A DNA stretch of 61,387 nt from a virus (IMGVR_UViG_3300027320_000012:1-61387); one strand, 5' to 3'. Numbered from the stretch's first letter, positions 3,665-24,467 are shown. Numbers and translations are program-made. The notes: generated by a model from the letters alone, not told the origin.

Positions 3665-5098
3665 ATGAGTATCACACCAACAAATCATCAATGGGAAGCG
3701 ATCCAGCAAACTGCTGAGTGGTATTCTGATGCTGCCAAGTCGTTTCAGTTTTCCCCGCCCCCGGCTGAGGATGATCACGTTGCGTGGCAGACCTATACCC
3801 CTCAACGGCTGACCCCCGGAATTGATCCCGGACAGGCGTTTGTGTTCGCTGGATACGCCGGTTCCGGCAAGTCCACATGTGTCGCCGCCCTGATCGAAGA
3901 GCTTGGCCTAAAGCAGGACGAGGTCATGTACATGGCCCCGACCGGAAAAGCTGCCAAGGTTCTCACAGGCAAGCTGCGCGACTCCGGCTGGTACGTTCCA
4001 GCCACGACAATCCACAAAGCAATCTACATGCCCCAGACCCAGAAGTCGCAGGAGATCAAGGATAACCTTGACCGTGCGGATCAGGAGTGGGAGTACCGCA
4101 TTCTGGAAGCCGCGAAGGGCAACGAAGGCGCGCGCGTCATGTTTGCCAATCTGAACAACCACGATCTGCAAGTCCTGATGAACAGACTTGAGAACGAGCT
4201 TTCTGACGCGATGAGCGACGAAGGCTTGTCCTTCACTCTGAAAGATCGTAAACACCTTCCAGAACGCACAAAGCTTATTGTTGTGGACGAGGCGTCCATG
4301 GTCGGCACATTCATTGCTGACGACCTAGCTGCGTTCAACATTCCGATCCTCGCCATTGGCGACCCCGGACAGTTGCCGCCCATCGACAGCGACCACGGTT
4401 TCGACATGGACACACCCGACGTGTTCCTCACAGAAATCCACCGCCAAGCCGCTGAGAACCCGATCATCCAGTTGGCAACCATGGCGCGCCAAGGCGAATA
4501 CATCAAGCCCGGAAAGTACGGCGACAACGCCCGTGTGATCCGCCGCCGCGACGACGACGTCACGTTGGACATGGACAGTGAGGCCATGGTTCTGTGCGGA
4601 ACGCACAAGAAACGCTTCGCCATCACCGGGGAAATCAGAAAGGCCCTCGGCATCACGTCTACCGGCCCGGTCAAGGATGAGCCCATCCTCGTGCAGCGAA
4701 ATTCGCGTGAGTACCCGTCGCTGGTAAACGGCAGCATCCTGACCTGTATGGAAGACGTCGGTGACCTTGAAAACGGTGCCGCGTCCATGGAAATGCGTGT
4801 TCAGAACCCCGACCACGACAACATCGAATACACGCTCAAGTGCCCGCAGGCGCTGTTCGAAGAGCATCACTTCAAGAAGCGTGGAGCTTACAGCGGAAAC
4901 ACCAAGGCGGTGTACCATGCCAAGGCTACACAAGAACACCTTGATTGGGGTCACGTGCTGACCGTACACAAGTCTCAAGGCTCTGAGTGGGATGAGGTTG
5001 TGGTTCACGACGAAAGCGGCGTGTTCCGCAGCGATTCCAACCGCTGGCTTTACACGGGAATTACCCGAGCAAAAGAAAAACTAACGATAGTGGTGTGA
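3665..5098 (+). CDS. SF1B DNA helicase, RecD2/Dda-like
   Basis: 477-residue ATP-dependent helicase. Motif I is GYAGSGKST (63-71), motif II is IVVDEASMVG (near 205-214) and motif III is GDPGQLPP (near 238). The C-terminal UvrD_C_2-type segment carries VHKSQGSEWDEV (near 434) and the terminal YTGITRAKEKL. These match the RecD/TraA/Dda group that unwinds DNA 5'-3'. At this size it lacks the large N-terminal part of cellular RecD2 and resembles T4 Dda. It probably remodels replication or recombination intermediates together with the neighbouring nuclease and SSB-like protein. Confidence 0.88.
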   Translation: MSITPTNHQWEAIQQTAEWYSDAAKSFQFSPPPAEDDHVAWQTYTPQRLTPGIDPGQAFVFAGYAGSGKSTCVAALIEELGLKQDEVMYMAPTGKAAKVLTGKLRDSGWYVPATTIHKAIYMPQTQKSQEIKDNLDRADQEWEYRILEAAKGNEGARVMFANLNNHDLQVLMNRLENELSDAMSDEGLSFTLKDRKHLPERTKLIVVDEASMVGTFIADDLAAFNIPILAIGDPGQLPPIDSDHGFDMDTPDVFLTEIHRQAAENPIIQLATMARQGEYIKPGKYGDNARVIRRRDDDVTLDMDSEAMVLCGTHKKRFAITGEIRKALGITSTGPVKDEPILVQRNSREYPSLVNGSILTCMEDVGDLENGAASMEMRVQNPDHDNIEYTLKCPQALFEEHHFKKRGAYSGNTKAVYHAKATQEHLDWGHVLTVHKSQGSEWDEVVVHDESGVFRSDSNRWLYTGITRAKEKLTIVV

Positions 5099-5124
5099 CG
5101 TGAAAACAATTAAAGGACAAGACA

Positions 5125-6105
5125 ATGCCTAACCCGAAAATTCTCATCATTGGTCACGCCCGCCACGGCAAGGACACTGTTGCAGAAATGCTACGCGACG
5201 AGCACGATTACAACTTCGTGTCCTCGTCTGAATTCGTTGGTCGCGAGATCATCTGGGAACAGTGGGGCAAGGACCGATATGCCTCGTTCGAGGAAATGTT
5301 CGAAGATCGCGTCAACCACCGAAAGCTGTGGGCTGACATGATCACTGACTACAACACCCCCGACAAGACGAAGACCGCCACAACGATGCTGTCTCGTGGT
5401 CACGACATGTACGTAGGCATGCGCCGCCGCGCCGAACTGGAAGCCTGTGTCGCTGCCGGGGTCTTTGACATTATTCTTTGGGTTGACCGCAGTCAGCACC
5501 TGCCCGACGAAAAGTTTGAGAGCATGGAAATGCTGATCACCGATGCCGATCACGTCATTGACAACAACGGCACTCTGGAAGATTTGCGAGACGGTGTTGC
5601 AGAATTCGCCTATCGTGTTCTGGGTAAGACCAAGGACACGAAGCTGGAAGTGCTCAATCTTCTCCAACACCTCAAAGAAGAAATCAGCACTGACGCCGAC
5701 ACACAAGTATCCGCTGTCATAACGACGTCGTGGGGCAAGGTCCTTACAGCCGGTGCGAACTGCCACACCCACGGCCTCGATCCAACCGCAGAGAACAGCA
5801 CCCGACCGGTGAAGTACGACTACATCGAGCATGCGGAGCGTAACGCAATCTTTGCGGCGGCGATGCAGGGCACATCGCTGCAAAGTGCTGAAATTTACAT
5901 CGAAGGTTTTCCGTGTGTCGAATGCGCCCGCGCAATCGTTCAAAGCGGAATCCGAAAGCTGTACCACGGCTCGACCGATGGTTTTGATCCTGTCAAGTAC
6001 AAGTTTGACCTCGCGCGAGAGATTCTCGAAGTCGCGGAAGTCGAGCTTGAGGATTGGAGCGGATGGCTTGACGCCAAGAACACTCCACCAGCAGATGTAT
6101 CGTAA
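5125..6105 (+). CDS. bifunctional deoxynucleoside monophosphate kinase-dCMP deaminase fusion
   Basis: One 326-residue chain carrying two nucleotide enzymes. Residues 5-165 form a P-loop kinase (ILIIGHARHGKDTVAE) of the dNMP/adenylate-kinase-like fold. Residues about 195-300 form a zinc-dependent dCMP deaminase, with H236 and E238 in HAERNA and C264/C267 in PCVEC. The deaminase converts dCMP to dUMP, feeding ThyX and complementing the dUTPase further along the operon. The kinase half would phosphorylate dNMPs, but its substrate cannot be read from sequence. Such domains are usually separate proteins. The gene overlaps the next by 11 bp. Confidence 0.8.
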   Translation: MPNPKILIIGHARHGKDTVAEMLRDEHDYNFVSSSEFVGREIIWEQWGKDRYASFEEMFEDRVNHRKLWADMITDYNTPDKTKTATTMLSRGHDMYVGMRRRAELEACVAAGVFDIILWVDRSQHLPDEKFESMEMLITDADHVIDNNGTLEDLRDGVAEFAYRVLGKTKDTKLEVLNLLQHLKEEISTDADTQVSAVITTSWGKVLTAGANCHTHGLDPTAENSTRPVKYDYIEHAERNAIFAAAMQGTSLQSAEIYIEGFPCVECARAIVQSGIRKLYHGSTDGFDPVKYKFDLAREILEVAEVELEDWSGWLDAKNTPPADVS

Positions 6106-6562
6106 CGACACCATCACTGCGGCGGAGATCGCCGAAGCTCTTAAACATGGTCGCCACAAGAAAGACCTGACCTTCGAAGAACTCCGCCTGTCTTCCGGCT
6201 TTGCCTTGCAGAGCCGTGTAGACCTGTGGGCTCTTAACGTAGCGCCGTCCGCCGGTAACGCTGCGGACGCCTACGAGATCAAGGTGTCCCGTTCCGACTT
6301 CCGCAGAGACAGCCACAAGAAACAACGGGGCGCGCGTCTATTCTCCGACCGCTTCTGGTACGTCGCTCCGGTGGGTGTTATCCCGCATGAAGACGTTCCT
6401 GATTGGGCTGGACTAATAGAATGCGAGTGGTATGCGAACGGAAAGCATAAGCCCTACCTACGCCTGCGTGAGGTGATCTCCGCCCCGAAGCGAGATAAGG
6501 ATGGCCCAACGTGGGGACTCGTGGTATCATTGCTTCGTCACGCTATGAAAGGGGGAAAGTAA
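6095..6562 (+). CDS. MmcB-like PD-(D/E)XK family DNA repair nuclease
   Basis: 155 residues if translation starts at the ATG at 6095; the frame is open further upstream but there it would lie inside the deaminase domain. The segment YEIKVSRSDFRRD, followed by SDRFWYVAPVGVIP..DVPDWAGLIE, resembles MmcB, an alphaproteobacterial putative endonuclease of the SOS mutagenesis cassette; EIK is the likely E-x-K active-site element. In a phage it may process damaged or host DNA. The start overlaps the previous stop, suggesting coupled translation. Confidence 0.65.
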   Translation: MYRNDTITAAEIAEALKHGRHKKDLTFEELRLSSGFALQSRVDLWALNVAPSAGNAADAYEIKVSRSDFRRDSHKKQRGARLFSDRFWYVAPVGVIPHEDVPDWAGLIECEWYANGKHKPYLRLREVISAPKRDKDGPTWGLVVSLLRHAMKGGK

Positions 6563-6802
6563 ATGGCTAAAGAACCGCGCGTTGTGGCAACATTGCGCAA
6601 TTGGCGCAAGCACGTATGCGACAAAAACGGGACCTTTGTGTTCTGGGGTCACGTCTACGATGACCTCACAAACCGTTTTCCGAACGGGCACTTTATTCAC
6701 ACTGCCCGTGTGGAGAAAGTCGAAGGCGACCTTGTCTACACAGCGAACAGCATATACAAACTTGACGGTGACGAAGTAGGCCCATCAATCGAGTATACAT
6801 GA
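6563..6802 (+). CDS. small protein of unknown function
   Basis: 79 residues; the ATG immediately follows the previous stop and has a strong ribosome binding site (GAAAGGGGG). Basic N-terminus (MAKEPRVVATLRNWRKH) and a compact mixed remainder containing FVFWGHVYDD and VYTANSIYKLDGDE, which reads like a small beta-barrel. No family recognised. It ends the first early operon before the promoter at 6872. Confidence 0.6.
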   Translation: MAKEPRVVATLRNWRKHVCDKNGTFVFWGHVYDDLTNRFPNGHFIHTARVEKVEGDLVYTANSIYKLDGDEVGPSIEYT

Positions 6803-6871
6803 TCGGCAACCAACATCGGCAAAGCGGACAAAATAGTGGACATCGTTAGTGGCAAAGTTCATCATTTGTTC

Positions 6872-6901
6872 TTGACAAGTGTATGTGCCAAAACGTAAAA
6901 T
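6872..6901 (+). promoter_or_regulatory. sigma70-like promoter for the thyX operon
   Basis: TTGACA (6872-6877), an 18-bp spacer, TAAAAT (6896-6901). The spacer contains ATGTGCCAAA, also found in the spacer of the promoter at 26425-26453. It lies in the only real gap (6803-6957) of this part of the early arm. Confidence 0.6.
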
Positions 6902-6957
6902 CAAAGTCACATTAGTGGCAATAAACCGGACATTAAACCGGCAAGAAGGACCCGACT

Positions 6958-7935
6958 ATGACCATCGAAGCAAAGATTATCGCCGACAGCGTCAGCCCCT
7001 ACGGCCCGCGCATCACCACGTTCCAGTTGAAGTACCCGCGCTTCATCCACGCCGAATTCATGACCCACCGCATGTTCAGCCGAAACGCGTCATCCAGCCG
7101 CGCGATCCCGGTAGAGAAACAGATCGACATGATCCGCGAAGACACGGCGATGCCGTCGCATTGGGGCAAGAACCAAAGCGGCATGCAGGCAGAGTTGGAA
7201 AGCTCCGACTCGGTAACGATCCCGGAAACCATCTGTACGACAGAGGGCAAAGAGATATTCCCCAAAGAGTACACAAACGAAGCGGCGTGGTGTGAAGCCC
7301 GTGACCGCGCAATAGAAGTCGCCAGAGGCTTTGTGAAAGCCGGGTACCACAAGCAAATCGTCAACCGCATTCTTGAACCGTTCAGCCACATCAGCGTTGT
7401 CTGCACGGCGACAAATTACGAGAACTTCTTCTGGCTCCGTCGCCATAAGGACGCGCAGCCCGAGATCAAAATCCTCGCGGACAAGATGTTCGACGTGATG
7501 ACGAACTCCATGCCGGTCAAACTTTCCGAGTATGATTGGCACCTGCCGTACATCACAGACGATGAGCGCGACGGGATTGAAGTCGTAAATCTTGGGGATG
7601 GAAACATCGGGGAGCAGGCGCATTTTACCACCGACGAACTCATCAAGATGAGCGTCGCCCGCTGCGCGCGTGTGTCTTATTTGACACACGACGGCGAGAC
7701 GCCAGACTACAAGAAGGACCTCGCACTGTACGAGCGCCTTGTTGGTTCTTCTCCGCTACACGCGTCCCCTGCCGAACACCAAGCAAAGCCTGACGGGCTT
7801 ATCTTTGTAGGCGAAGGGCTCAAGGATTGGGAGAACAGACATCTTCACGGTAACTTTACCGGGTTCCAGCAATTCCGCAAGATGCTTCCGGGGGAGGCAG
7901 TGAGCGATTGGGCCGGGCTGAATAGCTTCGACTGA
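6958..7935 (+). CDS. thyX: FAD-dependent thymidylate synthase ThyX
   Basis: Converts dUMP to dTMP using methylenetetrahydrofolate, FAD and NADPH. The signature region is THRMFSRNASSSRA, matching the ThyX motif R-H-R-x7-S with Thr in place of the first Arg. Downstream are ARCARVSYLTHDG and SPLHASPAEHQA, both typical of the family. At 325 residues it is longer than the usual 220-250-residue enzyme, with extra sequence between the two halves. It follows its own promoter and lies in a pathway with dCMP deaminase, RNR and dUTPase. The stop overlaps the next start (TGATG). Confidence 0.9.
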   Translation: MTIEAKIIADSVSPYGPRITTFQLKYPRFIHAEFMTHRMFSRNASSSRAIPVEKQIDMIREDTAMPSHWGKNQSGMQAELESSDSVTIPETICTTEGKEIFPKEYTNEAAWCEARDRAIEVARGFVKAGYHKQIVNRILEPFSHISVVCTATNYENFFWLRRHKDAQPEIKILADKMFDVMTNSMPVKLSEYDWHLPYITDDERDGIEVVNLGDGNIGEQAHFTTDELIKMSVARCARVSYLTHDGETPDYKKDLALYERLVGSSPLHASPAEHQAKPDGLIFVGEGLKDWENRHLHGNFTGFQQFRKMLPGEAVSDWAGLNSFD

Positions 7936-8189
7936 TGAAAGTTGTAATCACAATCGAGGATAAGGGAGTCCAGACAGTTTCCTACAATATGGAAACGGTG
8001 CTGCCTGAGTCCGAACTCGAACAGAACATGATCACCCCGGCATCTGTAATTGCTCTTGCCGTCAAGGCCATGTTTAACAATGGGATGCTCGCTGAGGCGG
8101 GCTCCCACGCATTGGCAGAAGCCGCAAAAGGCGTCTCCCCAGAAGAGAGCATCAGCAAAAAATATGACCAATCAAACCCCAACTCGTGA
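7935..8189 (+). CDS. small protein of unknown function, coupled to thyX
   Basis: 84 residues, start codon overlapping the thyX stop by one base. Short beta-rich N-terminus (MKVVITIEDKGVQTVSYNME) followed by an Ala-rich helical stretch. No domain recognised. It overlaps the following HTH gene by 26 bp. Confidence 0.6.
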   Translation: MKVVITIEDKGVQTVSYNMETVLPESELEQNMITPASVIALAVKAMFNNGMLAEAGSHALAEAAKGVSPEESISKKYDQSNPNS

Positions 8190-8526
8190 ACACCTGATAT
8201 TCCTCCGAGAAAAGGAAGGTCTTACACGAGAGCAGATCGCGAAGCATTACGAAGTCAGCCTGACTACCGTACGCCGATGGATCAAAGAAATGAAGGTGCC
8301 GCGCCCGACAAAACAGGCGCGCCAACAGCAGCACAAAAACCTGTCACGACTTGGTGAAATCATCGCCGATGCAGACGACGGTCTAACGGTCATGGATCAC
8401 GCCAAAGCAATCCTTGGGGACCGTCTCACAGAACGACGCGGTCAGGGTTATTTTGTTGACGAACGTCCTGTAAATAGTCGCCGAGTCATCGAAGCGGCGG
8501 GACTAAAATTCGCAGACGAAATGTAG
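8164..8526 (+). CDS. helix-turn-helix protein, probable DNA-binding regulator
   Basis: 120 residues from the ATG at 8164; the frame extends upstream but that would bury it in the previous gene. Residues about 10-45 read as a helix-turn-helix: LREKEGLTREQIAKHYEVSL then TTVRRWIKEM, like the resolvase/transposase-type HTH. The C-terminal half (LTVMDHAKAILGDRLTERR..GYFVDERPVNSRRVIEAAGL) resembles a second small DNA-associated module. Sitting just before the RNR promoter and structured leader, it could regulate that unit, which is inference from position. Confidence 0.6.
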   Translation: MTNQTPTREHLIFLREKEGLTREQIAKHYEVSLTTVRRWIKEMKVPRPTKQARQQQHKNLSRLGEIIADADDGLTVMDHAKAILGDRLTERRGQGYFVDERPVNSRRVIEAAGLKFADEM

Positions 8527-8562
8527 TATTTTCGACCCGGTGGCTCTTGACATGAAATTGTT

Positions 8563-8591
8563 TTGACAGAGCCTTCGGGTTGTACTACGAT
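8563..8591 (+). promoter_or_regulatory. sigma70-like promoter for the RNR operon
   Basis: TTGACA (8563-8568), a 17-bp spacer, TACGAT (8586-8591). It leaves a 5' leader of roughly 100 nt before the RNR start at 8699. Confidence 0.65.
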
Positions 8592-8601
8592 GACCAAATC
8601 C

Positions 8602-8672
8602 GCCCTTCACAAGGGCTCGCACCACAACCTATAGTGCCAACAGCACGCATTCTCATGTCTGCGTGATGGCAC
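8602..8672 (+). promoter_or_regulatory. structured 5' leader of the RNR mRNA (two hairpins)
   Basis: Hairpin 1 is GCCCTT-CAC-AAGGGC (8602-8616). Hairpin 2 (8634-8672) has two stacked stems: GTGCCA pairs with TGGCAC, and inside it CACGCA pairs with TGCGTG around a 10-nt loop. The ribosome binding site AGGAG (8685-8689) follows. Because the downstream enzyme needs adenosylcobalamin, a cobalamin-sensing element was considered, but the known core is not recognisable. Confidence 0.5.
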
Positions 8673-8698
8673 CCTTTGTCCGTCAGGAGTAGACAAGA

Positions 8699-11674
8699 AT
8701 GACCGAGCAGAGCGCCCGAGCGCAGATCGTTGAACGCCGCACATACCTCCGCCCCCTTGATAAGAATGGCACTGTCTTCGAAACCCCAGAACAAGCATGG
8801 CGACGTGTTATTGAGCACCAGCACTGGCTTTGGGAACGCGCTAAGGGTGAACCGCTCGACCTGATGGAACTTGCCGAGCTTGAAGAGCTTTACACGCTAT
8901 TCATGGATCGCAAGGTTACCGTATCCGGGCGCACCCGCTGGCTTGGTGGAACAGACGTCGCAAAAGCGCGCGAAGCATCCCAATTTAACCCCCTCCCCCG
9001 TGATAGTTCTTTCATCAGCACCGCAGGAACCGTGTCGTTCGAAGAGTGCGAGGACGGGGACAAGTTTACCGTTATGACCCACACGGGCTCTTGGAAAGAC
9101 GCAACAGTTATGTATGCGGGTGAGCGCGATGTGGTAGAAATCGATCTTATACGTGGGCGCGGTAAAAAGACGATCCGTTCCAGTGTTGACCACACTTGGA
9201 TTCTACGTGACGGTGACCGTGTTATGGCTGATAAATTGGCGTGCGGGGACCAACTATTCGCCGCCCCGGAAGATTCATTCCACGATTGGTCCTATGAAGA
9301 GGCTGACACCGATGAACAGCATTGGTGGGCGTGTGGTTTTGTGTATGGAGACGGGGCTATCGCGTACTCTGGCGGCTCAGAAACATCACGTGTGCGTCTG
9401 TGCGGTAGCAAGGGAGAGTACCTACCAAGATTCACTTCGCTTGGCTTTGGGCACAGCTACCCACCATCCTGCGATGGCGATCCCATAGTATACACGGGGA
9501 AGTATCTCAAAACACTGCCTGACGATGATACGGAACTTCGCCTTATCAAAGCATTTCTACACGGATATTTCACCGCAGACGCGAGCAGAAAATGGCAGCG
9601 CGGAGTCACCAAATTTACTGGAATTTTCTGTGGCGACCCGGATGCGGCGAGCTTTGTGGCAAAGTATGCCCCGGTGTTTGGCCTTTACATCATCAGAGAA
9701 GAGCCGCAATCGGTGCCCACCAACTACGGTACCCGCGAAGGCACCTATCTGTCTTTCACTACCTCCACCAAGCAACTTCTGTGGAAGGTGAAGGAAGTTC
9801 GAGCGGCCCCACCGGAAGAATGCTGGTGTCTTACAGTACACGACGACGACCACTCTTTTGTCATGCCGGATTCCATTGTTTCTGGTAACTGTGCATTTGG
9901 CGAAGTCCAGACTGTGCATGACGTGGTCGATACCATCTGGCTCTTGCTGCAAGGCTGCGGCGTCGGGTTCCGTGGCAACGTTGGTGTCCTTAACGGATTC
10001 ACGCAGCACATCGACGAGATCGAAATCATTCGCTCCGAGAAAAAGCTTCCGGTCGGAGAAGACGGTAAGCCGGTGTCTGATCCATCTTTGAAGGGCAACC
10101 CAAAGAACAAAGAAACGTTCGACAAAGCGACGGGCGTTTGGACGATTGTCGTCGGCGACAGCGCCGAAGCGTGGGCAAAATTCTTCGGCAAGATCATGGC
10201 GTTCAAAGGCCGCGCGAAAAAGATGATCGTGGACTTTAGCGAAATCCGTCCGGCTGGTTACCGCCTGTCTGGTTATGGCTGGATTTCATCCGGCGACGAA
10301 CAGATAGCACTGGCTACCAATGGCATCTTCGATGTGATGAATCGTGCTGCCGGGAAGCTGTTGTCAGCTATGGATATTCTTGACGTCGAGAACTGGCTTG
10401 GAACAATCCTGTCCTCCCGCCGCTCCGCAGAGATCGCCCTGTATCCGTACGGCGAGCCTGAGTGGGAAGACTTCGCTATGGCGAAGAAGGACCACAACGA
10501 GAACGGTATGTGGCATCGCGGAATGTCAAACAACTCTCTCTTGTTTTATCAAAAGCCGACACGCCGCCAGTTGAACAAAATCTTCAAGATGATGGAGCGC
10601 GCTGGCGGGTCCGAGCCCGGCTTCATTAACGCCTTGGCGGCACTGGACCGCGCGCCTTACTTCAAGGGCGTCAACCCTTGCGCAGAAATCCTTCTTGGGG
10701 ACAAGTCGTTCTGTAACCTTGTCGAGACGGCTGTGTCGCGCTTCAACGGGGACGAGCACGGCCTGCACCGCGCACATTACCTTGTGGCACGCGCCAACTA
10801 CCGCCAGACCTGTGTGAACCTAGACGACGGCGTCCTACAGCGCACGTGGCACGAACTGAATGAATTCCTACGTCTCTGCGGCGTTGGCGTCACTGGTATT
10901 GTGGCATGGGAATTCTGGCGCGACCCAGAAGCGTGGGAAGAGCTTCGCGAAGTGGCGCACCGTGGCTGCGACGATATGGCAGACGAACTGTCCCTGCCGC
11001 GCGCCGTCCTCAAGACGACTGTGAAGCCGTCTGGTACGCAGTCCAAGGTGTTTGGCCTCGTTGGTGATGAAGTGCCGGAAGGCGCGCACCTACCGCTCGC
11101 TCGCTACATCATCAACCGCATCAACTTCTCGGCACACGATCCGATGCTGGCGGCGATGATCGACGCGGGCTACCGCACGGAACCAAACCCGTACGACAGC
11201 ACGGCGACCCTCGTTCAAATTCCTGTGGATTACTCCAACATCGAAGGCTTCGAGAAGGTCACGGTCACGAAGAAGAACGGTTACACCGTTGATGTTGAAG
11301 TCAACATGGAACCGGCTATCGACCAGCTTTATCGCTACAAGATTCTGCAAGAACACTACGTCGATCACAACTGCTCGATCACGATCTACTACAGCCCGGA
11401 CGAAGTACCGGCGATGGTTGATTGGCTGATGGACAATTGGGACAGCTACGTCGGTGTGTCGTTCCTCTACCGCCCTGATCCTGTTGCGATGGTGGTGGAC
11501 CCAGAATCCGTAGCCAAATCAGCCGGTTATCCGTACCTCCCTCAAACTCCTGTGGATGAAGAAACATTCCGAGAGTATGCAAACAGCTTGAAGCCTGTAG
11601 ACTTTACAGGTACGGATATGGAACAGATGTTGGACGATATGGAATGTGCAACAGGCGCGTGCCCGATACGATGA
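8699..11674 (+). CDS. adenosylcobalamin-dependent (class II) ribonucleoside-triphosphate reductase, interrupted by an intein
   Basis: A 991-residue precursor. Removing the 300-residue intein (98-397) leaves about 691 residues, close to the monomeric Lactobacillus-type RTPR. Catalytic residues map well: the first extein residue after the intein, C398 (QFN/CAF), is the redox-active substrate-reducing Cys; C661 and E663 in NPCAEILLG are the radical Cys and general base; C672, eleven residues on, is the redox partner; and C983/C988 in the C-terminal ECATGACPIR are the shuttle pair. It also carries a PSGTQS element. The enzyme makes dNTPs from NTPs using vitamin B12, without oxygen or an iron subunit. 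The stop overlaps the glutaredoxin start (ATGA). Confidence 0.92.
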   Translation: MTEQSARAQIVERRTYLRPLDKNGTVFETPEQAWRRVIEHQHWLWERAKGEPLDLMELAELEELYTLFMDRKVTVSGRTRWLGGTDVAKAREASQFNPLPRDSSFISTAGTVSFEECEDGDKFTVMTHTGSWKDATVMYAGERDVVEIDLIRGRGKKTIRSSVDHTWILRDGDRVMADKLACGDQLFAAPEDSFHDWSYEEADTDEQHWWACGFVYGDGAIAYSGGSETSRVRLCGSKGEYLPRFTSLGFGHSYPPSCDGDPIVYTGKYLKTLPDDDTELRLIKAFLHGYFTADASRKWQRGVTKFTGIFCGDPDAASFVAKYAPVFGLYIIREEPQSVPTNYGTREGTYLSFTTSTKQLLWKVKEVRAAPPEECWCLTVHDDDHSFVMPDSIVSGNCAFGEVQTVHDVVDTIWLLLQGCGVGFRGNVGVLNGFTQHIDEIEIIRSEKKLPVGEDGKPVSDPSLKGNPKNKETFDKATGVWTIVVGDSAEAWAKFFGKIMAFKGRAKKMIVDFSEIRPAGYRLSGYGWISSGDEQIALATNGIFDVMNRAAGKLLSAMDILDVENWLGTILSSRRSAEIALYPYGEPEWEDFAMAKKDHNENGMWHRGMSNNSLLFYQKPTRRQLNKIFKMMERAGGSEPGFINALAALDRAPYFKGVNPCAEILLGDKSFCNLVETAVSRFNGDEHGLHRAHYLVARANYRQTCVNLDDGVLQRTWHELNEFLRLCGVGVTGIVAWEFWRDPEAWEELREVAHRGCDDMADELSLPRAVLKTTVKPSGTQSKVFGLVGDEVPEGAHLPLARYIINRINFSAHDPMLAAMIDAGYRTEPNPYDSTATLVQIPVDYSNIEGFEKVTVTKKNGYTVDVEVNMEPAIDQLYRYKILQEHYVDHNCSITIYYSPDEVPAMVDWLMDNWDSYVGVSFLYRPDPVAMVVDPESVAKSAGYPYLPQTPVDEETFREYANSLKPVDFTGTDMEQMLDDMECATGACPIR
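8990..9889 (+). mobile_element. intein with LAGLIDADG homing endonuclease, inserted at the RNR active-site cysteine
   Basis: Codes for residues 98-397 of the RNR precursor. The N-terminal splicing half reads SSFISTAGTVSFEE...GSWKDA, with block B around SSVDHTW (H165, W167). The endonuclease core carries two LAGLIDADG-like motifs, ACGFVYGDGAI (212-222) and HGYFTADAS (288-296). Block F is CWCLTV (C377) and the intein ends IVSGN with +1 Cys. Residue 1 is Pro, not Cys/Ser, and the penultimate residue is Gly instead of the usual His. Pro1 with W two residues after the block B His and Cys in block F is the pattern of class 3 inteins. Confidence 0.88.
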
Positions 11675-11910
11675 TCCAATCCTCGTTCATGATACACACA
11701 CAGGCGGGGCGCTCGTGCCCTTGGTGTGAGAAAGCTGCGGAAGCCCTTGACAACGCGGGGCTTCCGTATATGATACGACCACTTGCACGACCGCAGTTGC
11801 TTGAGGTTGCAGAACGCGCTAAAATGTCAACTGTTCCGATCATTTATCACGGCGTCACGCTGGTTGGAGGGTATGAAGAGTTGATCAAGTACCTAGACGC
11901 CCGAACCTAG
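11671..11910 (+). CDS. glutaredoxin-like thiol-disulfide carrier
   Basis: 79 residues, start overlapping the RNR stop (ATGA). The redox motif SCPWC lies near residues 15-19 after a short beta strand (FMIHTQAGR), and the cis-Pro/GSH-side elements STVPIIYHG and LVGGYEELIKYL follow in the usual order. It would re-reduce the C-terminal cysteine pair of the RNR, which explains the translational coupling. Confidence 0.85.
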   Translation: MIQSSFMIHTQAGRSCPWCEKAAEALDNAGLPYMIRPLARPQLLEVAERAKMSTVPIIYHGVTLVGGYEELIKYLDART

Positions 11911-11923
11911 CTAGGAGAAGAAC

Positions 11924-12025
11924 ATGGAAGGACTTATTGGACTCGTCGTCGTTGCGGGCGTCGTTTACTACATCGGCGGCAAGCGCGGCTGGTGGAAGTT
12001 GTTCTGGGTCAAAGACGGCGAGTAA
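11924..12025 (+). CDS. 33-residue single-span membrane protein
   Basis: A very short gene with a clear ribosome binding site (AGGAGAAG, 7 nt spacing). One hydrophobic helix (LIGLVVVAGVVYYIGG) is followed by a basic, Trp-rich end (KRGWWKLFWVKDGE). Probably inner-membrane; function unknown. Its fit between glutaredoxin and dUTPase suggests it is real. Confidence 0.5.
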   Translation: MEGLIGLVVVAGVVYYIGGKRGWWKLFWVKDGE

Positions 12026-12054
12026 TCGCCGACCAGTACACACACAGAAAACGG

Positions 12055-12068
12055 CCCGCTGACGCGGG
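12055..12068. repeat. CGCTGACGCG hairpin repeat, copy 2
   Basis: CCCGC-TGAC-GCGGG in the gap before the dUTPase gene, identical to the hairpin at 2632-2645. Confidence 0.6.
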
Positions 12069-12101
12069 GCGTGTCATACTAGACCCCCGAAAAGGAACAC
12101 T

Positions 12102-12599
12102 ATGTCCGACGAAAATGTTGAACTGAATGCAGGCTTGTTCGCGCAAGAACGTCGCGCGCCTATCATTCATATCCCGATCAAACTTCTATCCCGCAATGCG
12201 CAGATGCCTCACTACGGCAGCAGCGACGCGGCAGGTATGGACCTGTACGCTGATGTGGGAGACCTTGGAGTCGTCCAAATAAATCCCGGTGAGCGCAAGC
12301 TCATCAAGACAGGAATCGCAATGGCGATCCCGCCGGGTTATTACGGAAGAGTGGCCCCGCGTAGCGGGCTCGCAATGAAGAACGGTATTGATATCATGGC
12401 GGGGGTTATTGATGGAGACTACCGTGGAGAAGTCGGCGCAATTCTTATCAACTTCGGCAGTGCCGCTTTCAACGTCCACACTGGCGACCGTATCGCACAG
12501 CTTATCCTTGAACGATATGCACCAGCCTACACGTATAAGGTGGGAGTCCTTCCCGGAACGAAACGCGGAACTGGTGGGTTCGGATCGACTGGAAAGTGA
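12102..12599 (+). CDS. dut: dUTPase (deoxyuridine 5'-triphosphate nucleotidohydrolase)
   Basis: 165 residues. It hydrolyses dUTP to dUMP and pyrophosphate, preventing uracil incorporation and supplying ThyX. The five trimeric-dUTPase motifs are present in order: DAAGMDLYA (I), PRSGLA (II), GVIDGDYRGE (III), GDRIAQLI (IV) and the Gly-rich tail RGTGGFGSTG (V). There is an N-terminal extension of about 40 residues. It is the last gene of the + arm and is followed by a hairpin. Confidence 0.93.
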   Translation: MSDENVELNAGLFAQERRAPIIHIPIKLLSRNAQMPHYGSSDAAGMDLYADVGDLGVVQINPGERKLIKTGIAMAIPPGYYGRVAPRSGLAMKNGIDIMAGVIDGDYRGEVGAILINFGSAAFNVHTGDRIAQLILERYAPAYTYKVGVLPGTKRGTGGFGSTGK

Positions 12600-21755: not shown

Positions 21756-22188
21756 AGTCTACCCCACGGAAAAGACGGATATCAACCAAGCGACTCTCAA
21801 GGGATTGGCTACCCTCAGAGTAGTATTGTTCGTGAACGCGACGCTTGGGAAAGGCTTCTGAGTGAATTACGGTCACTGCGCCTGTATCCGAATCTACCGC
21901 AAAAATGCCTGTATGGCAAGGCATGGTGGTGTCGTTAAAGATGCCTATCGCCCCATTAACAGGGACCACCGGTCTGACGGGATCAGTGTACAGGCGTATC
22001 TGTTGAAGGAACGCGGGGCCGGGGTCTCTTCGGTAACCTTTCAGGTCCTCACCTTCGAGACCAAATTCCCATATCGTGCGCATCAAAAGTCCTGCGCAAT
22101 CAATACCTCTTTCGGTACGTCCTTGGTGAACCCACTTTGTTCCAAGCCAAGAGCGGGCGTACTTCACTACATCATCGGGTGTTGTCAT
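21748..22188 (-). CDS. NlpC/P60-family tail peptidase, GTA gp14-like
   Basis: 146 residues. Catalytic Cys in GIDCAGLLMRT (near residue 30) and His in PCHTGIFAV identify the NlpC/P60 cysteine peptidase fold; the sequence starts with YARSWLGTKWVHQGR as in the GTA tail peptidase. It likely cuts peptidoglycan stem peptides so the tail can pass the wall. It overlaps the tip protein gene by 8 bp and abuts the DUF2163 gene. Confidence 0.85.
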   Translation of the reverse strand: MTTPDDVVKYARSWLGTKWVHQGRTERGIDCAGLLMRTIWEFGLEGEDLKGYRRDPGPAFLQQIRLYTDPVRPVVPVNGAIGIFNDTTMPCHTGIFAVDSDTGAVTVIHSEAFPKRRVHEQYYSEGSQSLESRLVDIRLFRGVDYV

Positions 22189-24467
22189 TATTTCGCATCC
22201 GGGTAACGGAAAAGCTCATCTTGTCCGGGGATGTCAGGGAACCCGAAGAAGTTGATTATGTTTCTGAAAATAGCCGCGCAACTGATTCTTGATTTGTCAC
22301 AGCCGGGGTAGATCAGGAACTCACTTCCTATGTCAATATTGTCGGGAACAGACAAGAACAGGGAAACTTCCCCGGTTGACTGAACCCACGATTTCACTTC
22401 CATGGCGACGCCTGCGTTATCGCCAGTAACAAATATTACTGTACCTCCTTGGAACCATCCATCGACGGCACGGGGCTCCGTGATCGACGCGTTGAAAACT
22501 CTAGGGCCACCACCGTTGGTTACGACACCAGAGCGAAGATATGCGTTTCGTGCTGTAAATGTCGCACCACCATCTGCTGCGGTGGACCCGGCACCACCGA
22601 GGTAAGTCGCGGGGTAAGTCGCGGCGGTTGTGCCAGCGCTTGTGCATTCCCAATAGACATTGTTCAAAGTTGATGGCAAGAATGCTGGATCAACCTGTGC
22701 CGTGTCAAGCATCTTGGCGCGAAGCTCGTCGAACCAAGCACCGGCTACGCCTTGAGAATCTAGGTCAATACGCAATACGCGTGCTTGTGTCGGCACCTCT
22801 ATAGGTCCGGTGTCGAACGGCACCCAAGTGGTACCAACATCAGTGAAGCCGGAATTATACCCGGTGGCTACGCCTGTGCCATTGAATGGCGCTTTTGAGG
22901 TGACGAACGTGGTAGTGCCTGCGCCGGTACCGTAGTTGGTGGCGTCATTTCCGGTCTGGTCGTTTATCGTGCCATCGTCAAACGAGAACCAACGTAGAAG
23001 GTTTGCGTCAGGTGTCACGGGATCGCCCTTCGTGATCAGGACAATCTCTTCATATGGTATCGCCTCATCGTATATACGAACGTCGTCAAGGTATCCGTTA
23101 TCAAATGGTGTCAAGCCAGTGCCGAAAGGGATTACCTCGTCGTTGTTTGCGAACAGGTCCTCAAAATAGAATGGGCCATTCCATGCAGTGGTGTCCGAAG
23201 ACATCAATTCAAAGTTGATGTAAATGCGAACGGTGGTTCCTTCGCGTTGAACGATGACGTGATTCCACACACCTGTGTTGACTCTGGTGAGATCGGACGC
23301 CAAGTTGGGGCTGCTTATTACGGTGTCTAGGTCGTTGTCAGTAACGTAGTTGGATTGCAAGAGTATGGCGCGATCTGAATAAACGATCTGTGATCCTGTA
23401 TTCAACGTCAACACGCTGTTTTCCCCGACACCCCCCGCCATAATGCCGCCGTACGATGTGTCGTCTGGATTGATCCAGAACATGACCGTAAAGTCGCCCG
23501 GTATGTTGAACGTGCTGGCGTAGCGTTGACGTACTGTGGTACGCGCGGCACTTCCTCGCGTGCAGGTGTTGCCGTCTTCATCTAGGAAAGTCACACGGAC
23601 GCGTCCGTCACCGCCATCGTTTTTGCGGTAGCCTTCTAGGCGGAAGGTTGCATCGCCGTTTGTGACCACGGACAACGGTAGGTCGGAAGCACCTTCGAAA
23701 TCAATAAATTGCGATGTCGTGCCGTCACCGGCTCCGCCAACAAGAGACGCCGGGGCTGAGAATGCACCACCCACTGCGGTGGTCATCGGGTTGGCCCCAG
23801 AATCATACCAGTTCAAAGACGTCGCGAAACTACCGGCGCTCAGTGTGCTGAACGATGGGTCTTGAATTGTAAAGTCGTATCGAAGTCCAAGCTCTTCGTC
23901 ACTCTGCGCGGCAAGAACAACATCGCCCAAAGCGTAGGCTCTGCTGCGCTGTACTTGGTCCGGTCGAATGACGATACCGCAGGATGGTTCGCCAAGGTCG
24001 TACAAGCACGTGACACTGAAAATGTCCATGTAGTTGTAGGCAAGGCGCTGCATGAGGCCGCGAAGCTCGACTTGAAAAGTCTCGTTCGGCAGGGTCTGCA
24101 CCTCACCGAAAAAACCACGACGAAGTTTAATCTTTCCAGGAATGGCGTCAGACCAAGCTGTCATGAACACGCTGACGCGTGCGTTGTCGAACAGGCCGTT
24201 GCGCAGGTCTTGAGCAGGCAGGGCCAGTTCATTTGCCAAGCCAACAACTTCTAGGTTGTCAACGGATAGTGTTGAAGAGGTCTCGATTGCTGTGCGCTTG
24301 TACGCACCAATGGAGCTATAGGTAGAGCCTTCGATGATCAGGTCTTCGTCGGAATCAGTGAACAGATAGATGCGACCGTCCGCGCGCTCAATTTCCCAAC
24401 ACGTAGCGAGCCCGGTTACTTCCTGATCAAGGTGGTCTCTAAGGACCTGTGTTTCTACCGTCTTCAT
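22188..24467 (-). CDS. DUF2163 tail protein (GTA gp13-like) with inserted lectin-like (LamG) domain
   Basis: 759 residues, about 2.5 times the usual GTA gp13 length. Residues 1-200 are a clear DUF2163 domain (YSSIGAYKRTAIETSSTLSVDNLEV). The C-terminal end is the usual gp13 ending (FLIYPGCDKSRISC, NFFGFPDIPGQDEL). Between them lies a long insertion, including a concanavalin/LamG-like fold at about 330-480 (FTVMFWINPDDTSY...NTGVWNHVIVQREGTTVRIYIN). The insertion adds a probable carbohydrate-binding module to the tail hub. Position between DUF2460 and NlpC/P60 genes is as in GTA. Confidence 0.8.
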   Translation of the reverse strand: MKTVETQVLRDHLDQEVTGLATCWEIERADGRIYLFTDSDEDLIIEGSTYSSIGAYKRTAIETSSTLSVDNLEVVGLANELALPAQDLRNGLFDNARVSVFMTAWSDAIPGKIKLRRGFFGEVQTLPNETFQVELRGLMQRLAYNYMDIFSVTCLYDLGEPSCGIVIRPDQVQRSRAYALGDVVLAAQSDEELGLRYDFTIQDPSFSTLSAGSFATSLNWYDSGANPMTTAVGGAFSAPASLVGGAGDGTTSQFIDFEGASDLPLSVVTNGDATFRLEGYRKNDGGDGRVRVTFLDEDGNTCTRGSAARTTVRQRYASTFNIPGDFTVMFWINPDDTSYGGIMAGGVGENSVLTLNTGSQIVYSDRAILLQSNYVTDNDLDTVISSPNLASDLTRVNTGVWNHVIVQREGTTVRIYINFELMSSDTTAWNGPFYFEDLFANNDEVIPFGTGLTPFDNGYLDDVRIYDEAIPYEEIVLITKGDPVTPDANLLRWFSFDDGTINDQTGNDATNYGTGAGTTTFVTSKAPFNGTGVATGYNSGFTDVGTTWVPFDTGPIEVPTQARVLRIDLDSQGVAGAWFDELRAKMLDTAQVDPAFLPSTLNNVYWECTSAGTTAATYPATYLGGAGSTAADGGATFTARNAYLRSGVVTNGGGPRVFNASITEPRAVDGWFQGGTVIFVTGDNAGVAMEVKSWVQSTGEVSLFLSVPDNIDIGSEFLIYPGCDKSRISCAAIFRNIINFFGFPDIPGQDELFRYPDAK
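24168..24181. repeat. CGCTGACGCG hairpin repeat, copy 7
   Basis: CACGC-TGAC-GCGTG within the DUF2163 gene; both outer pairs differ from copy 1 yet remain complementary. Confidence 0.45.

Follow-up and report, generated by a model that had tools for sequence, protein, structure and literature searches.

A proline-initial intein at the substrate-reducing cysteine of a viral class II ribonucleotide reductase, a candidate for block F-initiated splicing

A mobile intein, made up of a HINT splicing domain and a LAGLIDADG endonuclease and placed between an asparagine and the substrate-reducing cysteine of a ribonucleotide reductase (RNR), is the best explanation for an insert in the window, the 61,387-nt stretch of viral DNA analyzed here (IMGVR_UViG_3300027320_000012:1-61387). 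The intein begins with proline (Pro1). Taken as a whole, the evidence is best explained (probability about 0.6) by an ancestral intein with Cys1 and the Trp-Cys-Thr (W-C-T) triplet that gave rise to a Pro1 intein, in which splicing would be initiated by Cys280 of block F. The origin of class 3 inteins is disputed: they have been held to be monophyletic, descended from a single phage intein after the loss of its first residue (PMC3196547, PMC4031507); another study considered class 3 not directly derivable from class 1, a simple conversion having failed (PMC7664689). The family described here combines Cys1 and Pro1 members at one insertion site, with only three fully invariant positions differing, all of them in the splicing center, and it supplies matched natural precursors for testing a route in which W-C-T comes first and the loss of Cys1 second. 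Its sequences suggest a second route to class 3-type splicing with Cys1 plus W-C-T as the intermediate, and thereby how the rarer splicing mode can arise from the common one, in a setting where splicing is tied to the unmasking of an RNR active-site cysteine.

The interrupted RNR gene

The host gene (Table 1) encodes a 991-residue protein that matches TIGR02505 at 471.6 bits (cut-off 340; E 4e-141); a Pfam search of the whole protein at a threshold of 0.001 assigned no family. The spliced protein aligns with the ribonucleoside-triphosphate reductase (RTPR) of L. leichmannii (1L1L; phmmer, E 4.5e-33), and this alignment places the +1 cysteine (Cys398 of the precursor) on Cys119, one of the two substrate-reducing thiols of that enzyme. 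With TIGR02505 above its cut-off and a Cys119 equivalent present, the extein is, by its sequence, an AdoCbl-dependent ribonucleoside-triphosphate reductase, that is, a monomeric RTPR/NrdJ-type class II RNR. The best tblastn matches of the C-extein to phage RTPRs are 52-56% identical. A preliminary description of this DNA had placed the insertion exactly at the catalytic cysteine, and the intein-free relatives bear this out. Removing the insert in silico restores SQFN-C(A/S)F, as found in the uninterrupted RTPR of Roseobacter phage CRP-113, and 13 of 13 related viral contigs carry an intein-free REASQFN^C(S/A)F (one is 90% identical in the N-extein). Because CRP-113 and all 13 contigs are free of the intein at this site, the limits of the insert are fixed exactly, and related phages differ in whether they carry it. 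Since the intein directly precedes the substrate-reducing cysteine, the unspliced RNR should be inactive. Active enzyme should thus be absent before splicing, with the RNR's own reductant cysteine serving as the +1 nucleophile; RNRs interrupted here by Cys1 relatives should behave likewise.

The insert is in frame and covers residues 98-397 of the precursor. A direct check recovered every residue and both ends as first described: N97, P98, H165, W167, C377, S395, G396, N397, and C398. In intein numbering, used below, these include Pro1, His68, Trp70, Cys280, and Ser298-Gly299-Asn300, followed by the +1 cysteine. The register set by the empty sites and the structural superposition confirms that residue 1 is not a nucleophile, and W167, C377, and S395 fall, as had been proposed, at B:12 (two residues after the block B histidine), F:4, and G:5. 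The identification as an intein draws on several lines of evidence and not on a single motif: a weak TIGR01443 match of the C-terminal region (E 0.022), full-length homologues within other RNRs (E from 8e-37 to 4e-19), and the superposition of an AlphaFold2 model (pTM 0.89, mean pLDDT 91.6) on inteins of known structure. The best structural matches of this model are solved inteins. PI-PfuI (1dq3) ranks first by Z score (18.8, 275 residues aligned) and likewise combines a splicing domain with a LAGLIDADG endonuclease, although it is archaeal and only 16% identical; the class 3 intein Msm DnaBi1 (6bs8) reaches Z 16.9. The matches to PI-PfuI and PI-SceI span the whole model, in which residue 9 (intein residue 1) lies on residue 1 of the solved structures and residue 308 (Asn300) lies on, or adjacent to, their C-terminal residue. 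Asp121 and Asp197 of the LAGLIDADG domain are both conserved in the alignment, and the homing endonuclease may still be active.

Table 1. Features of the interrupted RNR gene and its 3' neighbor, in window coordinates
Feature	Position	Strand	Basis
Intein-containing class II (AdoCbl-dependent, monomeric RTPR/NrdJ-type) RNR gene	8699..11674	+	TIGR02505 and 1L1L matches
N-extein, C-terminal end REASQFN	8699..8989	+	Alignment with CRP-113 RTPR and 13 contigs
Intein of 300 aa, Pro1 to Asn300	8990..9889	+	Residue check, empty sites, model, structural superposition
Intein residue 1, Pro (CCC); Cys in every Cys1 relative	8990..8992	+	Alignment
Block B:7, Ser65; Thr in 51/51 Cys1 RNR relatives	9182..9184	+	Alignment
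Block B:10, His68, invariant	9191..9193	+	Residue check and alignment
Block B:12, Trp70, invariant	9197..9199	+	Residue check and alignment
LAGLIDADG homing-endonuclease domain, limits approximate	9263..9784	+	PF14528 E 0.0077 (under its cut-off), Asp121/Asp197, structural matches
Block F:2, Cys278; invariant in Pro1 clade, absent in Cys1 RNR relatives	9821..9823	+	Alignment
Block F:4, Cys280, proposed first nucleophile; invariant in all relatives	9827..9829	+	Alignment
Block G, Ser298-Gly299-Asn300	9881..9889	+	Residue check
+1 Cys, Cys398 of the precursor, RTPR Cys119	9890..9892	+	phmmer alignment to 1L1L
C-extein	9890..11671	+	tblastn to phage RTPRs
Glutaredoxin/GST-N-like ORF that overlaps the 3' end of the RNR gene; real start possibly further downstream	11644..11910	+	PF00462 E 1.9e-5

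Residue pattern among relatives

A block F intermediate, a W-C-T triplet, and a residue-1 nucleophile that is dispensable or absent define class 3 inteins (PMC5222942, PMC4031507); what has been described is that this class can dispense with residue 1, and not that residue 1 is always lacking (PMC5222942). In class 1, Thr B:7 spring-loads residue 1, and class 3 inteins generally do without this threonine (PMC6195587). A survey of 1,701 class 3 inteins gives 4.6% of known members as deviating from Thr at G:5 (PMC7891396). The window intein agrees with class 3 in Pro1, Trp70 at B:12, Cys280 at F:4, and Ser65 instead of Thr at B:7, and departs from it in having Ser298 instead of Thr at G:5. Pro1 separates it from class 1 (Cys1, Ser1, or Thr1), and the F:4 cysteine separates it from class 2 (Asp F:4). 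The loss of the class 1 Thr B:7 and the gain of a second cysteine at F:2 (CWC) are features beyond the preliminary description.

With alignment-based scans of IMG/VR, the set grew to 71 distinct full-length inteins, 65 with Cys1 and six with Pro1; single-sequence scans of viral_contigs and genome_contigs with the intein returned no match, and an alignment scan of genome_contigs found no intein relative. Phage genomes searched by tblastn contain full-length homologues (26-33% identity) in the class III RNR genes of Vibrio phage V6Aob, Morganella phage MP1, Klebsiella phage FBKp34, and two gut phages. The N^C junction at the RNR reductant cysteine is the site of nearly all close relatives, in class II RTPR-like as well as class III enzymes.

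All 65 Cys1 inteins have Thr B:7, Trp B:12, and Cys F:4, and 64 have Thr G:5. The six Pro1 inteins (the window copy, L008, L009, L010, L040, and L102) all reside in SQFN-type RTPRs and retain Trp B:12 and Cys F:4. Position B:7 is Ser in three and Cys in three, so that the Asp usual there in class 3 is absent from the clade; G:5 is Ser in five and Thr in one, and F:2 is Cys in 6/6, against 0/51 Cys1 RNR members. Block F initiation is favored because all 71 counted inteins retain Cys F:4, whereas position 1 and B:7 vary jointly. When the count is restricted to the 51 Cys1 RNR-family alignment rows, 17 columns are invariant, and 14 of these are retained in all Pro1 members; the other three (A:1 Cys to Pro, B:7 Thr to Ser/Cys, G:5 Thr to Ser) are all splicing positions. 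This is the pattern expected if residue-1 chemistry were dropped and the block F cysteine kept, and on the tree it is a single event, an unreplicated correlation within the family.

The Pro1 intein is kept on six contigs, 49-75% identical to the window copy, with the frame open, the active-site residues intact, and the RNR extein likewise intact. Substitutions over the intein in this clade amount to pN 0.18-0.30 versus pS 0.76-0.84 (synonymous sites being saturated). As pN is far below the saturated pS, the Pro1 inteins have been maintained at the protein level, unlike what a dead insert would show. In class 1, removal of Cys1 normally abolishes splicing (PMC3196547), as an inactive or cleavage-only intein would have it, but with this conservation of sequence and frame such an outcome is very hard to credit.

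Descent and splicing mechanism

The term "class 3 variant" had been proposed for this intein. Pro1, Trp B:12, and Cys F:4 agree with it, whereas the nearest kin are Cys1 RNR inteins: the Pro1 splicing domains score 114-150 bits against profile models of seven random Cys1 RNR inteins and 29-55 bits against models of seven class 3 inteins. The term is at best a statement on mechanism and not on descent. Some of the arguments for it also fall away. Trp B:12 and Thr G:5 were ruled out as class markers here, since the W-C-T triplet occurs in the Cys1 relatives and HxW (L032, L024) and TGN occur in Ser1/Asp F:4 inteins at the radical-cysteine site of RNR. A +1 cysteine is no peculiarity either: Bvi IcmO, called unique in this respect in 2016 (PMC5222942), is a class 3 intein with Cys+1, and the Phrappuccino terminase (TerL) intein looks like another. 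Gly in place of the penultimate His, likewise singled out, is common to the whole family at G:6. In its main lines the mechanistic reading is probably correct, though the reasons differ in part.

In a tree of 67 full-length inteins, the Pro1 members form one clade (100/100), nested within a clade of 50 rows (99/97) whose other members are all Cys1 RNR inteins, with more Cys1 branches outside. They remain nested (95/85) when position 1 and the last three residues are masked and Ser1 and other deeper outgroups are added. An AU test of the alternative in which all Cys1 RNR rows are monophyletic and Pro1 is their sister did not reject it (p 0.147 and 0.179), and these values leave the exact depth of nesting unsettled. 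Cys1 is the simplest ancestral state because every outgroup in the full-length trees has Cys1 or Ser1, and we infer from the sequences a change from Cys1 to Pro1.

Compared with class 3 inteins (MP-Be DnaB, Dra Snf2, Msm DnaBi1/Mch DnaB1, Bvi IcmO), the window intein shares the non-nucleophilic residue 1, Trp B:12, Cys F:4, the missing Thr B:7, and the HINT fold of 6bs8; it differs in Ser G:5, Gly G:6, Ser/Cys instead of Asp at B:7, Cys F:2, and sequence kinship. With the Cys1 phage RNR inteins at the N^C site (class II RTPR-like, and class III NrdD of MP1, FBKp34, and V6Aob), it shares homology over its full length including the endonuclease, the same host residue, HxW, Cys F:4, and GN^C, whereas these have Cys1, Thr B:7, and Thr G:5 and lack Cys F:2. 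A third point of comparison is provided by Pro1 inteins in TerL (Caulobacter phage CcrKarma, Brevundimonas phage Bajun), which share Pro1-Leu2, the block F sequence C-x-C-L-T-V, and the missing Thr B:7, but differ in host gene, in Phe B:12, and in a V-(H/K)-N^S end, with low sequence similarity. C-x-C-L-T-V was present in 7/7 Pro1 TerL inteins examined. This likeness could point to true descent from the DnaB/TerL class 3 clade, or to a chimera with a splicing domain from there, and an AU test on the short splicing domain with the Pro1 RNR inteins forced together with TerL/helicase-type class 3 did not reject that grouping (p 0.358). However, with the active-site residues masked, the splicing domains of Pro1 RNR inteins (97/99) and of class 3 inteins (98/98) form separate clades, the class 3 set here being TerL/ATPase/RNAP inteins in place of the prototype Bethlehem DnaB. 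Both halves of the Pro1 splicing domain also score higher with Cys1 RNR models (N half 70-92 versus 7-25 bits; C half 38-67 versus 30-42), leaving a TerL-type transplant unsupported. Membership by descent in the DnaB/TerL clade has no support in the best trees and scores and appears improbable, although p 0.358 still allows kinship with class 3; the best reading is an origin in situ from a Cys1 intein that already had the triplet.

For the preferred explanation, the ancestor would be a Cys1 intein with Trp B:12, Cys F:4, and Thr G:5 already in place, and in the RTPR lineage Cys1 would have become Pro and Thr B:7, the helper residue of class 1, would have disappeared. In the Pro1 intein, Cys280 would attack the Asn97-Pro98 bond to give a branched thioester at block F, the N-extein would then be transferred to the +1 cysteine, and cyclization of Asn300 followed by an acyl shift would join the exteins into an RNR with its active-site cysteine. 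That splicing occurs, and in this order, we infer from the residue pattern and consider probable. A further comparison is with the split class 3 intein AceL NrdHF, taken here by its description: it has a proven class 3 mechanism that tolerates a non-standard triplet and a missing G:6 His in an RNR gene (PMC7891396), although AceL is split, sits in NrdHF, and has Met B:12 and Ala1. A point counter to the preferred explanation is Ser/Cys at B:7, unlike the Asp of DnaB class 3 inteins.

Block F initiation may instead be older than the Pro1 clade. The whole RNR family, Cys1 members included, would then splice through block F, and Cys1 would be a redundant relic lost in the Pro1 clade; the W-C-T triplet of all Cys1 members and the dispensability, rather than constant absence, of residue 1 in class 3 (PMC5222942) fit such a history. 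It is nevertheless unlikely, given that none of the 51 Cys1 RNR members deviates from Cys1 or Thr B:7, which suggests that both are used, and that W and T are also found in Ser1/Asp F:4 inteins. Direct attack of the +1 cysteine on the Asn-Pro bond, bypassing a block F intermediate, would resemble class 2 inteins such as KlbA, with which a non-nucleophilic residue 1 and Cys+1 are shared (PMC4031507). Yet F:4 in class 2 is an Asp activator (PMC4031507), and here it is an invariant Cys; in Bvi IcmO, the natural Cys+1 is unable to replace Cys F:4 (PMC5222942). A class 2-like route thus seems improbable.

The cysteine at F:2 invites another interpretation, in which the clade-specific Cys278, and not the F:4 residue, is the new first nucleophile, or in which the CWC pair is a redox switch for splicing. 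Its distribution (every Pro1 RNR and Pro1 TerL intein examined, no Cys1 RNR member) agrees with a special role. The established class 3 nucleophile is nevertheless the F:4 cysteine, and position F:2 is Thr or Val in three class 3 inteins with Ala1 (L126-L128), which makes this interpretation about as doubtful as the class 2-like route. A redox role for F:2 is conceivable, as speculation, because a disulfide at the block F cysteine inhibits splicing of DnaBi1 (PMC6195587) and the ORF after the RNR gene is glutaredoxin-like; such a role would be compatible with initiation at Cys280, not opposed to it. The odds are about even that block F-initiated splicing arose a second time, in the RNR family and independently of the DnaB/TerL class 3 clade, with the Cys1 plus W-C-T members as a preserved intermediate and with Pro1 and C-x-C-L-T-V convergent with the Pro1 TerL inteins.

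Other inteins and neighboring genes

Inteins also occupy a second position in RNRs, the NP^C motif with the radical cysteine (L032, L023, L024, L035). Those inteins have Ser1 (Cys1 in a Nodularia phage) with Asp F:4 and are of class 1 type, and the RNR genes of L023 and L024 are interrupted at both catalytic cysteines. A further group of relatives, in a different RNR type (L026-L029), have inserted at an NN^C site and end in TY-Gln^Cys or TF-Asn^Cys, Gln-ending C termini being unusual. The GyrB-like gene of Burkholderia phage BcepSauron (L037:1000-3588) contains an unannotated 179-residue Pro1 intein (PFVGET...PVYCLTV...SAN^C) with Ser B:7, Cys F:4, and Cys+1, a class 3-like candidate at the topoisomerase DPDxDG site. 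In the MobF gene of Skermanella rosea plasmid pSR-4 (L007:2498-3424), annotated only as a relaxase, a Cys1 intein with W-C-T is found at HYH^CFGCG, a primase zinc-finger-like site. Two RefSeq names look wrong, possibly through inteins (L034, L127): Pacc40 gp60 is named an anaerobic RNR (DNA methylase in GenBank), and the Phrappuccino terminase is named a DarB-like antirestriction protein.

Elsewhere in the window, a 758-residue baseplate hub/tail assembly protein (22188-24467, minus strand; PF09931 and PF09356) was suspected of harboring a second intein; the segment that splits its usual two parts is instead an internal LamG-like domain (PF13385), possibly a host-binding insert. The RNR gene itself lies in a nucleotide-metabolism block (3665-12599) together with an SF1-type helicase, a dCMP deaminase with a dNMP-kinase-like part (5125-6105), ThyX (6958-7935), the glutaredoxin-like ORF, and a dUTPase.
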